Source: Candidatus Bathyarchaeia archaeon (lineage in GTDB: Archaea; Thermoproteota; Bathyarchaeia; Bathyarchaeales; DTEX01). From it: 64,000 nt of DNA. The stretch spans positions 1 through 64,000 of the forward strand of contig JAVZNR010000007.1 in NCBI GenBank assembly GCA_038882715.1. The letters run 5' to 3'. The notes beneath the pieces were generated by a model, which worked only from the letters and a program-made list of their open reading frames with translations, made no database searches and was not told the origin of the DNA. Positions 2,242 to 56,051 of this stretch are shown here, in pieces. The position numbers were made by a program, and so were the translations under genes. The first letter of the stretch is position 1, and every line of letters starts with the position of its first letter.

Positions 2242-3471
2242 GTGAGCTTTATGTTGCGTCTGGCGCGCAGGAGCGATTGGTGGCTGCTTTCCGTATGTAC
2301 TGTAACGCATATTTTCGTGCATGTGTTCACGATGATGTATACTGCGCTTATACCGGTATTTATGAGGGATTTTAACTTAACGATTCATGAGGCTGGGCTT
2401 CTTGTTTCAGTGCCGCAGTTAATCTCAATCATGCTGAGTTTACCTTACGGCTTCATCGCTGATAGAGTTGACCCCCGCAAATTGATGGCTGCAAGCCTGC
2501 TTGTAGCCGGATTCTCAGGTCTACTCGCAAGCCATTCCCAGGGCTTCATCATGCTTCTGGCTTCAGCAACCCTAGTATCCTTCTCGTCAACAGTCTATCA
2601 TCCGCCTGCACTGAAGGTTCTAAGTGAGAATTTTATGGGGGAGAGGCAGAGTAGGGTTCTAGGGATACATGGAGCTGGAGGGACAACCGGGGTAGCGATA
2701 GGGCCCATAACCCTTGGGTTAATGCTTGAAGGGTTTGGCTGGCGCTTCGCCTATATGGTTTGGGGGCTTCCTGTCCTTCTCTCAGCGCTGCTAACGTTTA
2801 GTCTACCGTATGGGGGAGCAGTTGAGAAACCCCAGAATGATATAAGTGTTGCGTCAGGCGATAGGCGAGCGAAGAGCGAAAACCACGGCGATGAAAACTC
2901 AGAGAAATATGATAGGGCACGTGGATATATGCTTCTCCTTTTAGCTACTGGAATAAATAGTGTTGGGCAGCAGGCGCTATCAACATACATGACCACATAC
3001 CTAGTTTCAGCGAGAAAGTTCTCTGAGGCAAACGCGAGCCTACTCTTCGGATTAAGCCCATTTATTGGAATAATAGGCTCATTGGCCGGGGGTTATTTCG
3101 GCGGCAAGATTGGAAACAAGCATTGGATCACTATCGCATATGTGGGCACAGCGTTCTCTCATTCAGCCATATGGTTTGGGTCACCATGGATAATAGCGCC
3201 CTCCTATCTCATGGGAGGGTTCTTTGGAGGCAGCACGCTCGCCCCCTCAACAACTCTTGTGGCAAGATATTCCTCAAGAGAGAGGCGCGGTCTAGCATAC
3301 ACGATCTTCATGCTATCTCCAAGCATCGTTGGATCAGTTTCCCCTTTAATCGCGGCGTGGCTGGTTGAGGAGCATGGTTTCACAGGGCTCTTTCCCTTCA
3401 CAATATCTTTAACCCTTCTCAGCACCTTCGTACTGCAAACTCTTCCTAAGGAAGAGCATGAACCCTCATAA
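2242..3471 (+). CDS. MFS transporter, fosmidomycin-resistance-like
   Basis: A 12-helix major facilitator superfamily secondary transporter of the cytoplasmic membrane, about 409 aa. The first half carries the MFS motif A (GFIADRVDPRK) and a YHPPA segment followed by GAGGTTGVAIGP. That arrangement is typical of the Fsr/fosmidomycin-resistance branch of drug exporters. A charged cytoplasmic loop of about 35 residues separates the two six-helix halves. The start is GTG 2242 or ATG 2251. The TATA-like run at 2214-2226 fits a leaderless start at 2251. The real substrate cannot be read from sequence; drug or metabolite export is inference. Confidence 0.85.
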   Translation: MSFMLRLARRSDWWLLSVCTVTHIFVHVFTMMYTALIPVFMRDFNLTIHEAGLLVSVPQLISIMLSLPYGFIADRVDPRKLMAASLLVAGFSGLLASHSQGFIMLLASATLVSFSSTVYHPPALKVLSENFMGERQSRVLGIHGAGGTTGVAIGPITLGLMLEGFGWRFAYMVWGLPVLLSALLTFSLPYGGAVEKPQNDISVASGDRRAKSENHGDENSEKYDRARGYMLLLLATGINSVGQQALSTYMTTYLVSARKFSEANASLLFGLSPFIGIIGSLAGGYFGGKIGNKHWITIAYVGTAFSHSAIWFGSPWIIAPSYLMGGFFGGSTLAPSTTLVARYSSRERRGLAYTIFMLSPSIVGSVSPLIAAWLVEEHGFTGLFPFTISLTLLSTFVLQTLPKEEHEPS

Positions 3472-44985: not shown

Positions 44986-45092
44986 TGGCGGGCCCGCCGG
45001 GATTTGAACCCGGGATCTCCGGCTCCGGAGGCATGCACGCCTTTGCTTCTTCTCTGGCTCGGTGCCTTGGATCCTGGCTAGGCCACGGGCCC
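44986..45092 (-). tRNA. tRNA-Arg(CCG) with a non-canonical intron at position 29/30, CCA encoded
   Basis: On the minus strand the acceptor GGGCCCG/CGGGCCC, D arm GCCT/AGGC, T arm CCGGG/CCCGG, discriminator G and CCA are clear. The anticodon stem pairs only after a 27-nt intron (45033-45059) between positions 29 and 30 is removed. It then reads CCGGC/GCCGG with loop CTCCGGA, giving anticodon CCG. The splice sites fit a bulge-helix-bulge: GCAC pairs with GTGC as the 4-bp centre, with 3-nt bulges CGA and ATG each cut after their second base. The intron-side outer helix is short (GCC/GGC). Confidence 0.9.
45033..45059 (-). other. 27-nt tRNA intron (position 29/30)
   Basis: The intervening sequence is bounded by relaxed bulge-helix-bulge splice sites. 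Removing it restores a perfect 5-bp anticodon stem. Introns away from 37/38 are common in Thermoproteales and related TACK archaea and need a broad-specificity splicing endonuclease. Confidence 0.85.
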
Positions 45093-49349: not shown

Positions 49350-49378
49350 GGGCAGAAAATCTTTAGTTGGGGCAAAAT

Positions 49379-49939
49379 ATGGTTGGACAGAACGGTGGCG
49401 GGGAGCAAGAAGCGAAAAAGAAGATTATTGAGGCTTGGCTTAGGGATAATGGGGTTATTGTTGAATCTAGGGAGAACTCTGAAAAATTATCGCTGAGAGG
49501 TTACGGAGTACAAAAAGATGAGGGGCTTCTGCTAACTTTCTATGAAGCCCTGTACTTATGCAGCAGAGGCTTACTTAAGGTCATAGATGAGAAGACTGGA
49601 ACCCCCGTCGGCTTTCAAGACATCCTGAAAAAATACGAGTCTATTGAGAAAAATGCTTGGGTTAAATACCTTATCTACCGCGATTTAAGAAGCAGGGGGT
49701 ACGTTGTTCGGGAAGGTTTCGGATTAGGTGTGGACTTCCGCCTCTATGGTAGAGGGGAATACAGTAAAGATTCAGCGGACTACTTGGTTTACGGCATATA
49801 TGAGGGTATGGCTCTATCCATAGAGGATCTTACACAAATATTGCTGCGCGCACAAAACCTGAAAAAAGAACTTATATTAGCCGTTATTAATAGAAGGGGC
49901 GAAATCGTATACTATTCCCTTTCACGCCTCAACTTCTAA
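49379..49939 (+). CDS. endA: tRNA-splicing endonuclease subunit (EndA family), His of the catalytic triad replaced
   Basis: About 186 aa from ATG 49379 (TTG 49367 possible). The C-terminal nuclease domain is clear: LRSRGYVVREGFGLGVDFRLY, then ADYLV, then LKKELILAVINRRGEIVYY. Of the catalytic triad, Tyr123 (DFRLYG) and Lys163 (LKKEL) are present. The position of the usual His (H-[SA]-x-Y-L-V) is Ser132 here. That loss is typical of the structural subunit in heterotetrameric EndA, whose catalytic partner must then lie elsewhere. The heterotetramer handles non-canonical introns, such as the two unusual tRNA-Arg genes nearby. Confidence 0.85.
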   Translation: MVGQNGGGEQEAKKKIIEAWLRDNGVIVESRENSEKLSLRGYGVQKDEGLLLTFYEALYLCSRGLLKVIDEKTGTPVGFQDILKKYESIEKNAWVKYLIYRDLRSRGYVVREGFGLGVDFRLYGRGEYSKDSADYLVYGIYEGMALSIEDLTQILLRAQNLKKELILAVINRRGEIVYYSLSRLNF

Positions 49940-52311: not shown

Positions 52312-52317
52312 TTTATA
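52312..52317 (+). promoter_or_regulatory. BoxA of the permuted tRNA gene
   Basis: TTTATA, 33-38 nt upstream of the first base of the outer splice helix (52350). No TATA-like box precedes the 5' half at 52423. A single transcript covering both halves is therefore likely. Confidence 0.6.
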
Positions 52318-52349
52318 GCATTAACATCACAAAATATGTTTGATGCTGG

Positions 52350-52472
52350 GGCTCCAGCGCAGAAAGCCGGAGGTCGGGGGTTCAAATCCCCCCGGGTCCG
52401 CCAAACAGAAGCAACTAGCATTGGACCCGTGGTCTAGTCAGGATTAGGACGTCGGCCTGCGGAGCTGGGGCC
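52350..52472 (+). tRNA. Circularly permuted tRNA-Arg(GCG)
   Basis: The 3' half comes first: A38 at 52365, stem GCCGG 52366-52370, T arm 52376-52392, acceptor CGGGTCC 52393-52399, G73, CCA 52401-52403. A 19-nt spacer follows (52404-52422). Then comes the 5' half: acceptor GGACCCG 52423-52429, D arm 52432-52450, stem TCGGC 52452-52456, loop CTGCGG with anticodon GCG 52459-52461. The acceptor halves pair at all 7 bp. The outer ends form a canonical bulge-helix-bulge: GGCTCCAGC (52350-52358) with GCTGGGGCC (52464-52472), centre GCAG with CTGC, and 3-nt bulges AAA and GGA. Splicing joins G37 to A38. Permuted tRNAs are known in Thermofilum and some algae. Confidence 0.93.
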
Positions 52473-52682
52473 AAATAATTGATTCGGCAGGTATTTCCAG
52501 CATGATTTAGGGTTTTTAGAAAAGCAAAGTTTATTAATTTCATTTGTTGTTTTAGATTTTACTTGCTCTTACCTGAAGGTTATGCTGGCAGTAAATAAAA
52601 TTAATAGGAAGGTTTAATAATGTGTCTTGAATCTATTCAGCGCTATGCTGCAACATGTTTGAGCTCGGGGAGGTTTTAAGGT

Positions 52683-55600
52683 TTGATTAGCCCGGACGAC
52701 GCTTTTCTAGTTTTTAAGTCATTCTTCGAAGAGAAGGGGTTGGTTAGGCAACATCTTGATTCTTACAACGAGTTCATTGAGCACGGCCTCCAGGAAATCG
52801 TGGATGAGGTTGGCGAGGTTGAGATTGAGGTTCCGGAAGGCCCATTTAAAATAAAGCTTGGTAAAGTTTTTATTGCGCGGGAGACTGAAAACGGCGTTAT
52901 TTATGGCCCCTATATTACTGAGGTTGATGGGACGCGCCGCGAAATATATCCTATGGAGGCGCGTTTAAGGAACCTAACATACGCTATGCCGATTTCCGTT
53001 GAGATGACGCCGGTTGTTGGCGATAGAGAGCTCGATAAGGAGCTTGTATATATAGGCGATATTCCAACAATGCTTAAATCTAGATACTGCCACCTGTACG
53101 GTTTATCCGAGGAAGAGCTTATTAGGCAAGGCGAGGATCCTCTAGATCCGGGAGGATACTTTATAATTAATGGCTCTGAGAGGGTTATAGTTGCCCTAGA
53201 AGATTTAGCCCCAAACCGTATTCTCACGGATGTTGAGATTAAGGGCGCAACACCGATTTATAGGGCTAAAATCTTTTCGACCACAGTGGGCTTTAGGGCT
53301 AGGATCGAGGTTAGAATGAAGCCTAACGGCGCGCTTTATGTTTCTATTCCAGGCATCCCCTCGGAAATACCGTTCGTTGTTTTAATGAGGGCTCTTGGAC
53401 TTGAATCGGATAAGGAGATAGCTGAAGCGGTTTCACTGGACAAAAGCATACAGAGTGAGCTGGAGCCGTCGTTTGAGGATGCCGCTGGAGTGAACACTGT
53501 TGAGGAAGCCCTCTTATTTATTGGTAACCGGGTAGCGCACGGCCAAGTGAAGAGTTATAGGATTCAAAGAGCCGAGCTCCTCATAGACAGGAACTTTATG
53601 CCTCATATTGGGAGGTCTCATAAGAAAAGGATTGATAAGGCGATTCTACTTGGCGAGATGGCTGCTAGAGTCATTGAATTAAAGCTAGGTAGGCGCAAAC
53701 CGGATGACAAGGATCATGTTAAGAACAAAAGGTTGAAGCTCGCTGGCTCCCTATTAGCCGATTTATTCCGTATTGCCTTCAGAAATCTTTGCCGCGACAT
53801 AAAGTATCAGCTTGAAAGAATGGGTTCAAAGAGGCGCATGCTAAGCGTCTCAATAGCCGTCAGACCCGGCATAATAACTGAGAAGCTCCAGCATGCGTTG
53901 GCGACCGGCAACTGGGGCCGGGGTAAAGTTGGCATAACGCAGCTCCTCGACAGAACCAACCTAATATCCACTTACAGCCACCTACGGAGGGTTCAGTCGC
54001 CGCTGAGCAGAAGCCAGCCTAACTTTGAGGCTAGAGATTTGCATGCTACGCATTGGGGTAGGCTCTGTCCAAACGAGACGCCTGAAGGCGCCAACTGTGG
54101 GCTGGTTAAGAATCTGGCTTTATCAGCCTCGATATCTATCGGTGTGGATCCGGATAAAATCAAACGTGAACTCTATAGGCGGGGAGTTGTCCCGCTACTT
54201 GAGGCTGATGAGAAGCTCAGGGCTACGGGTACAAAGGTTTTTGTGAATGGTGTTCCAGTAGGCTACTGTGATAACCCAGAAGCCCTAGTCAATGATATAA
54301 GAAGAGCGAGAAGAATGGGTGAGATACTCCCTGAGGTCAACATCGCGTATTTCTCTGAGGTTTACGGTGTTAAACGTGAGATTTACGTGAACTGTGATGA
54401 GGGAAGAATACGTAGACCTCTAATCATAGTGGAGAACGGTGTGCCTAAGCTGAGGAAAGAGCATGTTGAAAAGATTATCTCCAGAGAATGGACTTGGAGC
54501 GATCTGATAAAGAACGGCATAATCGAATATTTGGATGCGGAGGAGGAAGAAAACGCCTATATAGCGCTTTATCCAGAGGACTTAACGCCTGAACACACCC
54601 ATCTTGAGTTGACGCCTTACGGCATTCTTGGGATCTGCGCTTCTCTAATACCGTACCCAGAGCATAATCAATCTCCACGCAACTCCTACGAGTCCGCGAT
54701 GGCGAAACAGGCTTTAGGAGTTTACGCCTCCAACTTCTCATTTAGAGTTGACTCGCGAGCCCATACGCTCCATTATCCGCAGAAGCCTCTGGTCAGAACA
54801 AAACCCATGGAGATTATAGGGTACGACCTCAGACCCTCAGGGCAAAACTGCATTGTAGCGGTTTTATCCTTCGAAGGATACAACATGGAGGACGCTATAG
54901 TCGTTAACAAGGCTTCTGTAGAGCGCGGTTTATTCCGCTCCACCTTCTATAGGCTGTATGAGGCTGAATGCCGCCAGTACCTAGGCGGCTTAAAGGATCA
55001 GTTAACTGTGCCTGAGCCCGGAACCAGAGGTTTTCGTGGAGAGCAATACTACAGCCACTTAGAGCCAGATGGAATAGTGGGATTGGAGACGGAAGTCTCT
55101 GGCGGAGACGTTTTAATAGGTAGAGTAAGCCCGCCGAGATTTCTCGAAGAGTATAAGGAGTTCGAGGTTAGGGGCCCAACAATGAGGGATTCGTCCATAG
55201 AGATGAGGCCCTCCGAGAAAGGCGTGGTTGACGCGGTGTTTATAACGGAGACTAGTGAGGGAAACAGGCTTGTGAAGGTTAGGGTTAGAGATGAGCGCAT
55301 ACCCGAGCTAGGCGACAAGTTTGCCTCAAGACACGGTCAAAAGGGGGTCATAGGGATGATTGTGCCGCAGGAAGATATGCCCTTCAGCGTGGATGGAATT
55401 GTCCCAGACGTGATAATTAACCCGCACGCTATCCCGTCAAGAATGACTATCGGACAGTTCCTAGAATCGATGGCTGGCAAAATATCAGCTTTGAAGGGCG
55501 AATTTATGGATGGAACCCCCTTCGTAGGCGAGAGGAGAGGCGAGATCCTCAAGCGCATGCTTACAAGCTTAGGGTTCAGTTACACTGGCCGCGAGGTTTT

Positions 55601-56051
55601 ATATAATGGTGTAACTGGCGAAAAATACATGGCGGACATATTCATCGGCGTGGTGTACTATCAGAAGCTACATCACATGGTGGCTGACAAGATTCATGCT
55701 AGGGCCAGAGGACAGGTTCAAATGTTGACTAGGCAGCCGACCGAGGGAAGAGCGAGAGGCGGCGGGCTGCGCTTCGGAGAGATGGAGAGAGACTGCCTAA
55801 TTGGGCATGGAGCAGCTCTTCTCCTCCAAGACAGGCTTCTCGAAGAGTCAGATAAACACGTGATATATGTTTGTGAAAACTGCGGCTTCATAGCTTACTA
55901 CGATATGAGGCAGCGTAAATATGTGTGCCACTTATGTGAAGATAAAGCAAGAGTTTCACCGGTCACGGTTTCATATGCGTTTAAGCTCCTCCTACAGGAG
56001 CTAATGAGCCTATGTATTGCGCCCAGATTAAAGTTAAGGGAGAGGGCGTAA
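52683..56051 (+). CDS. rpoB: RNA polymerase subunit B (unsplit)
   Basis: The second-largest subunit of archaeal RNA polymerase, 1,122 aa in one chain (some euryarchaea split it into B' and B''). Conserved blocks include LDPGGYFIINGSERVI, LCPNETPEGANCGL, GYNMEDAIVVNK, GDKFASRHGQKGV and the C-terminal zinc ribbon CENCGFIAYYD...CHLC. The start is TTG 52683, with GGGGAGG upstream. It leads rpoA directly (1-bp gap). The rpoH gene that usually precedes rpoB in archaea is not upstream; only the permuted tRNA and about 200 bp of AT-rich sequence are there. Confidence 0.95.
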   Translation: MISPDDAFLVFKSFFEEKGLVRQHLDSYNEFIEHGLQEIVDEVGEVEIEVPEGPFKIKLGKVFIARETENGVIYGPYITEVDGTRREIYPMEARLRNLTYAMPISVEMTPVVGDRELDKELVYIGDIPTMLKSRYCHLYGLSEEELIRQGEDPLDPGGYFIINGSERVIVALEDLAPNRILTDVEIKGATPIYRAKIFSTTVGFRARIEVRMKPNGALYVSIPGIPSEIPFVVLMRALGLESDKEIAEAVSLDKSIQSELEPSFEDAAGVNTVEEALLFIGNRVAHGQVKSYRIQRAELLIDRNFMPHIGRSHKKRIDKAILLGEMAARVIELKLGRRKPDDKDHVKNKRLKLAGSLLADLFRIAFRNLCRDIKYQLERMGSKRRMLSVSIAVRPGIITEKLQHALATGNWGRGKVGITQLLDRTNLISTYSHLRRVQSPLSRSQPNFEARDLHATHWGRLCPNETPEGANCGLVKNLALSASISIGVDPDKIKRELYRRGVVPLLEADEKLRATGTKVFVNGVPVGYCDNPEALVNDIRRARRMGEILPEVNIAYFSEVYGVKREIYVNCDEGRIRRPLIIVENGVPKLRKEHVEKIISREWTWSDLIKNGIIEYLDAEEEENAYIALYPEDLTPEHTHLELTPYGILGICASLIPYPEHNQSPRNSYESAMAKQALGVYASNFSFRVDSRAHTLHYPQKPLVRTKPMEIIGYDLRPSGQNCIVAVLSFEGYNMEDAIVVNKASVERGLFRSTFYRLYEAECRQYLGGLKDQLTVPEPGTRGFRGEQYYSHLEPDGIVGLETEVSGGDVLIGRVSPPRFLEEYKEFEVRGPTMRDSSIEMRPSEKGVVDAVFITETSEGNRLVKVRVRDERIPELGDKFASRHGQKGVIGMIVPQEDMPFSVDGIVPDVIINPHAIPSRMTIGQFLESMAGKISALKGEFMDGTPFVGERRGEILKRMLTSLGFSYTGREVLYNGVTGEKYMADIFIGVVYYQKLHHMVADKIHARARGQVQMLTRQPTEGRARGGGLRFGEMERDCLIGHGAALLLQDRLLEESDKHVIYVCENCGFIAYYDMRQRKYVCHLCEDKARVSPVTVSYAFKLLLQELMSLCIAPRLKLRERA

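Follow-up and report, generated by a model that had tools for sequence, protein, structure and literature searches.

The window analysed here, 64,000 nucleotides (nt) of contig JAVZNR010000007.1 from a Candidatus Bathyarchaeia archaeon (GenBank assembly GCA_038882715.1), carries at positions 52350-52472 of the forward strand a circularly permuted tRNA-Arg with the anticodon GCG. The 3' half of this tRNA lies upstream of its 5' half on the same strand with a short linker between them, and the outer ends of the locus form a bulge-helix-bulge (BHB) splice motif. The parts of the locus are listed below, with the evidence for each in brackets.

52312..52317, + strand: putative BoxA/TATA-like promoter element TTTATA, upstream of the 3' half (direct reading)
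52350..52358, + strand: 5' strand of the outer BHB helix, GGCTCCAGC, in the leader, predicted to be removed in maturation (reading, fold, covariation in 13 genomes)
52359..52362, + strand: 5' strand of the central 4-bp helix, GCAG (reading, fold, covariation)
52363..52365, + strand: 3-nt bulge AAA, with a predicted cut at 52364/52365 (reading, fold; cut from BHB rules)
52365..52403, + strand: tRNA-Arg 3' half, positions 38-76, with encoded CCA (reading, T-arm/CCA search, fold)
52404..52422, + strand: 19-nt linker AACAGAAGCAACTAGCATT between CCA and GGACCCG, predicted to leave the circular intermediate (reading)
52423..52462, + strand: tRNA-Arg 5' half, positions 1-37, anticodon GCG at 52459-52461 (reading, 5'-half pattern, fold)
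52457..52460, + strand: 3' strand of the central helix, CTGC, equal to positions 32-35 (reading, fold, covariation)
52461..52463, + strand: 3-nt bulge GGA, with a predicted cut at 52462/52463 (reading, fold; cut from BHB rules)
52464..52472, + strand: 3' strand of the outer BHB helix, GCTGGGGCC, in the trailer, predicted to be removed in maturation (reading, fold, covariation)

The part with the 3' half reads GGCTCCAGC-GCAG-AA^A-GCCGG-AGGTC-GGGGG-TTCAAAT-CCCCC-CGGGTCC-G-CCA and is followed by the linker, after which the part with the 5' half reads GGACCCG-TG-GTCT-(D loop)-GGAC-G-TCGGC-CTGC-GG^A-GCTGGGGCC. Joining the two at the carets gives a complete tRNA-Arg with T8, A14, G15-C48, G18G19, T33, T54T55C56, A58 and CCA, in which every stem is fully paired once G-U pairs are counted (T13-G22, T27-G43). 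Cuts in both bulges would yield ..GCGG and A-GCCGG, that is a junction between positions 37 and 38, which characterizes type II permuted genes. The T arm is contained whole in the 3' half, different from type IV genes such as those of Thermofilum pendens with their 59/60 junction. Together, leader and trailer form a strict hBHBh' motif: the outer helix has 9 bp, the centre 4 bp and each bulge 3 nt. A sequence-only reading of this stretch had described the order of CCA-bearing 3' half, 19 nt and 5' half, which proved exact to the base, as well as the full pairing of the acceptor, D, anticodon and T stems, the BHB geometry with its GCAG/CTGC centre and a BoxA before the 3' half; all of these were found again by direct reading, and the geometry also in the unconstrained fold.

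The unconstrained minimum free energy structure of positions 52345-52478 consists of exactly this BHB together with the acceptor and T stems. The folding energy by itself is not exceptional and is weak evidence (z -1.9). A strict descriptor, composed of the T stem, acceptor, D stem, anticodon stem, the centre and 5 bp of the outer helix, matched once in the window when both strands were scanned and not at all in 371 Mb of sequence simulated with a Markov-1 model, while four chance matches appeared in the same simulation when the splice motif was left out. In 2.8 Mb of retrieved loci the strict descriptor gave 51 matches, all of which are the permuted tRNA-Arg(GCG) gene. Neither ARAGORN nor the Rfam tRNA model detected the permuted gene.

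The same arrangement was found in 13 species of one family. Ten of the eleven species in the genus of the window carry it (G000, the genome of the window, to G006, and G008-G010), as do three of six species in a second genus (G016, G018, G019). In every carrier the GCG 5' half occurs once, and only in the permuted arrangement, and a TTTATA, TTTATG or TTTAAT element is located 44-59 nt upstream of the GCCGG of the 3' half in 13 of 13 orthologues. All exon pairs and tRNA-invariant bases are kept in the 13 species while the linkers drift, these being unconserved and 9-34 nt long; the flanks differ as well. In the 13-row alignment the whole structure is paired to 97.7%, compared with 33-50% for controls with shifted partners. 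The outer helix, which exists in the precursor only, is paired to 94.9% with two-sided changes at four of its nine pairs, and the natural reading of this pattern would be that selection acts on the precursor fold.

A covariance model of the permuted gene separates the carriers (135-151 bits) from the best other matches, which scored 47 bits in the order (163 genomes) and in the class (257 genomes) and 63 bits in a sample of 398 Thermoproteota genomes. Of the next-best matches (44-63 bits), the ones examined are linear tRNAs, either ordinary or in tandem, and were rejected as permuted genes. Since 8-20 candidates were scored per genome, the scan leaves room for permuted genes of other isotypes. 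Six of its matches (L309, L312, L314-L317; 47-63 bits) are tandem linear tRNA genes whose acceptor strands pair with each other, and such tandem pairs would be the starting point of a duplication route to permutation. Among the tRNA-Arg(GCG) matches listed elsewhere in the order the genes are linear, three of them with an intron at 37/38 (G074, G122, G127). Four genomes (G013, G014, G017, G020) gave no tRNA-Arg(GCG) 5' half in any form, probably due to assembly gaps. A site in G076 (C20:3220) was rejected as a permuted gene: at 3200-3290 of that contig (L260) a lone tRNA-Arg(GCG) 5'-half fragment is followed by GCGCGCGCGC with no BHB after it, and a complete linear copy is located 2.8 kb away on the same contig.

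The host of the window can be placed by the gene downstream of the tRNA locus:

52683..56051, + strand: rpoB, 210 bp downstream of the tRNA locus, a neighbour kept in most of the genus

The best matches of this rpoB are in Candidatus Bathyarchaeota metagenome-assembled genomes (MAGs), and the host is therefore a Bathyarchaeia species. A Thermofilum-related host was thereby rejected; the lineage meant in the sequence-only reading is not that of T. pendens, and Thermofilum is not a close relative.

The host genome is a MAG of 1.64 Mb in 22 contigs, 95% complete. The 5'-half pattern occurs at a single place in it, and no linear tRNA-Arg(GCG) was found among its 38 covariance-model matches and 41 T-arm/CCA sites; an absence of an ordinary copy had been named as a check on the permuted gene. 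A tRNA with this anticodon is needed, since seven genes of the window alone contain 20 CGT and 55 CGC codons, 75 in total. The other arginine tRNA genes, read by hand, have the anticodons CCT (L007), CCG (L036, in the window), TCT (L031) and TCG (L030), and all but CCT contain introns. In the CCG gene (44986-45092, - strand), which ARAGORN misses, a non-canonical intron interrupts the anticodon stem at about 29/30; introns of both the canonical and the non-canonical kind abound in the tRNA set as a whole. Genes for His, Lys(CTT), Val(TAC/CAC), Thr(TGT), Pro(TGG) and Ser(GGA) tRNAs were not recognised when the genome was read by hand; the draft may lack them, or they may be present with many interruptions or some other disruption.

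Among the 41 T-arm/CCA sites only tRNA-Arg(GCG) is permuted. One further candidate (L034/L163, match C4:25938-25961) is a linear tRNA with the acceptor GGGGCTG and several introns over about 260 nt. Two others (L149 at C1:6408 and L165 at C4:131342) are lone 3' ends of tRNA-Gly and tRNA-Pro, with CCA and without a partner, perhaps attachment-site remnants of integrated elements. Two more sites are no tRNAs and pair by chance.

Three other explanations of the locus have to be weighed. The two halves could be separate genes, transcribed independently and joined in trans without any circle, as is known for archaeal split tRNAs, some of which have adjacent halves (PMC3218864), and the same BHB would also support trans-splicing. 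The halves are only 19 nt apart, though, and with linkers of 9-34 nt the short cases have no room for a second promoter and a 5' leader; one TATA-like element is present, before the 3' half, and the acceptor strands, which lie on either side of the linker, would fold together within one transcript. We consider a split tRNA improbable. Still less credit can be given to a decaying relic or chance tRNA fragments, in which case the unassembled part would hold a linear tRNA-Arg(GCG). Partnerless fragments do occur in the host genome, of which about 5% is missing, but a relic would hardly keep its exon pairs, its invariant bases and a covarying precursor-only helix in 13 species while the linkers drift, nor would each of these species be expected to have its single GCG 5' half in the permuted arrangement. 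A rearrangement by assembly or binning, which at 52,404-52,422 was one of the findings that the sequence-only reading itself had named as fatal, is the least credible of the three: all carriers are draft genomes, and those with record titles are MAGs, but 13 separate assemblies of different species, with different linkers and flanks and conserved gene neighbourhoods, reject it. The covariation of the outer helix and the variation of the linkers thus argue against artefact and decay alike.

Because the second half is written before the first, the RNA must apparently be cut, circularised and reopened. A subunit of one of the enzymes predicted for this is encoded in the window, upstream of the permuted tRNA at a distance of about 2.4 kb:

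49367..49939, + strand: tRNA-splicing endonuclease subunit, probably the non-catalytic beta subunit with Ser in place of His (Pfam PF01974 and PF02778; alignment to M. jannaschii 1a79)

The host has two PF01974 genes, this one and another on contig C10, which probably represent a structural and a catalytic subunit. In the alignment the window subunit has Ser at the position of the M. jannaschii catalytic His, while the C10 subunit keeps this residue and most resembles the crenarchaeal alpha subunit; for this reason the splicing endonuclease of the host is likely of the (alpha-beta)2 type. One RtcB is encoded as well. We propose that transcription would start from the upstream BoxA and run through leader, 3' half, linker, 5' half and trailer, and that leader and trailer would then pair to the strict BHB. 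The endonuclease, probably (alpha-beta)2, would cut each bulge between its second and third base, and ligation of G37 to A38 by RtcB would close a circle. From this circle the 19-nt linker, located between CCA and G1, would be freed by RNase P together with a 3' endonuclease, and the product would be an ordinary tRNA for CGC and CGU codons.

Some points speak against this view. One pair of the centre is C-A in G018, and the permutation is not required for function, since G007, a congener, gets by on a linear gene. With a MAG in 22 contigs at 95% completeness, a linear GCG gene could have gone unseen in the host genome alone. The pathway via a circle was shown in algae and is described as unclear for archaea (PMC3978253). 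The locus is known here from its sequence, from which arrangement, structure, conservation, covariation, the lack of a detectable linear copy and the enzyme genes are taken, while promoter use, cleavage, circle formation, linker removal and charging are inferred. Nevertheless, structure, chance control, conservation with covariation in 13 genomes and the lack of a linear GCG gene agree with the permuted tRNA-Arg(GCG) with a BHB at 37/38 that had originally been suggested, and we hold it highly probable that this is a functional single-copy type II gene, matured via BHB cuts, a circle and removal of the linker.

G007 is the one species in the genus of the window whose sole GCG gene is linear, and it is also intronless. 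The gene has the same orientation and the same place as the permuted gene of the relatives, next to genes for an LSM protein and an M48 protease and an 88-aa open reading frame, and the endonuclease neighbourhood is likewise the same. In a five-protein tree G007 groups with G005 (93/93) and is nested within the permuted clade; a constraint that grouped the permuted members of the genus without G007 was rejected by the approximately unbiased (AU) test (p-AU 0.006). The G007 gene differs from the permuted genes in the acceptor (GGGCCCG versus GGACCCG) and the T stem (CTGGG versus GTGGG) and resembles other linear genes. The simplest reading would therefore be that a linear allele replaced the permuted gene at this site. 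Alternatively, the permuted allele might have spread by exchange.

The two genera with permuted genes are not sisters in the five-protein tree, where the second one groups with linear genera (96/96), and in the second genus the permuted genes are found at another genome location. The tree of the mature tRNAs permits a single permuted clade (p-AU 0.34, a permissive result only), and the permuted tRNAs of both genera share the sequences of acceptor, T stem and outer helix. On these grounds a single origin followed by loss or transfer seems more likely than two origins, without the matter being settled. The splice motif could itself go back to a tandemly duplicated tRNA gene whose outer halves were then lost, an origin model described earlier (PMC3978253), because the trailer AGCYGGRG still resembles the start of the 3' exon, AGCCGGAG, in 6-7 of 8 bases. 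This is only suggestive: such a match is expected by chance for about 0.4% of any 8-mers and for 8% of G+C-rich 8-mers that start with A, and the intron start of G122 also reaches 6 of 8. The permutation may be stable yet reversible, having arisen once, been kept through the diversification of the family and been replaced by a linear gene in G007, with a BHB perhaps from tandem duplication; this combined history is put forward tentatively and may well be wrong.

The permuted genes of T. pendens code for the iMet and Tyr tRNAs, both with 59/60 junctions (Chan et al. 2011, PMC3218864). They share with the genes described here the archaeal host, the 3' half in first position, the BHB at the joined ends and the encoded CCA, as well as, by prediction, the single promoter, and they too are single-copy essential genes within an intron-rich tRNA set. 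In contrast, the T. pendens genes are permuted in the T loop (type IV) and each has an additional 37/38 intron, with linkers of 7 and 1 nt, a single species of origin and flanks that resemble other lineages, whereas the Bathyarchaeia genes are permuted at 37/38 without a further intron, specify arginine, have linkers of 9-34 nt and are spread over 13 species. In Table 1 of Soma 2014 (PMC3978253) type II genes are restricted to algae and include Arg(TCT) of O. tauri. Those of red and green algae have the same 37/38 junction, a BHB of leader and trailer and a short variable linker; they differ in being eukaryotic and in lacking an encoded CCA, and processing via a circle was shown there while it is inferred here. 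Archaeal split tRNAs (Nanoarchaeum, Desulfurococcales; PMC3218864) likewise have halves spliced at a BHB, but from separate transcripts joined in trans, unlike the one short transcript unit predicted here. Finally, the tRNA-Arg(GCG) genes of G074, G122 and G127 agree in isotype, splice position and the ...AA^AGCCGG 3' site, but their halves are in ordinary order with a canonical 37/38 intron.

A search of full-text literature, with most subscription journals and preprints outside its coverage, revealed no permuted tRNA from Bathyarchaeota, nor any archaeal case beyond those of T. pendens. The arginine isotype, which had been thought to be new, is less so because permuted Arg genes are known from algae; the lineage is new. 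Also new are an archaeal 37/38 junction, the fact that the gene is conserved across genera and the presence of a linear counterpart at the same site in a congener. As long as the archaeal cases in the literature searched consisted of two T-loop genes in one species, the age, stability and origin of such genes were beyond comparative study. With 13 species, covariation and a linear counterpart, an ancient relic and a recent rearrangement can be tested against each other within one family, and likewise an origin by tandem duplication. The algal 37/38 architecture is now extended to archaea. Since standard tRNA finders miss the gene, tRNA-Arg(GCG) would be scored as missing in such genomes, and it is implied that in the organisms which carry the permuted gene its maturation would be essential.
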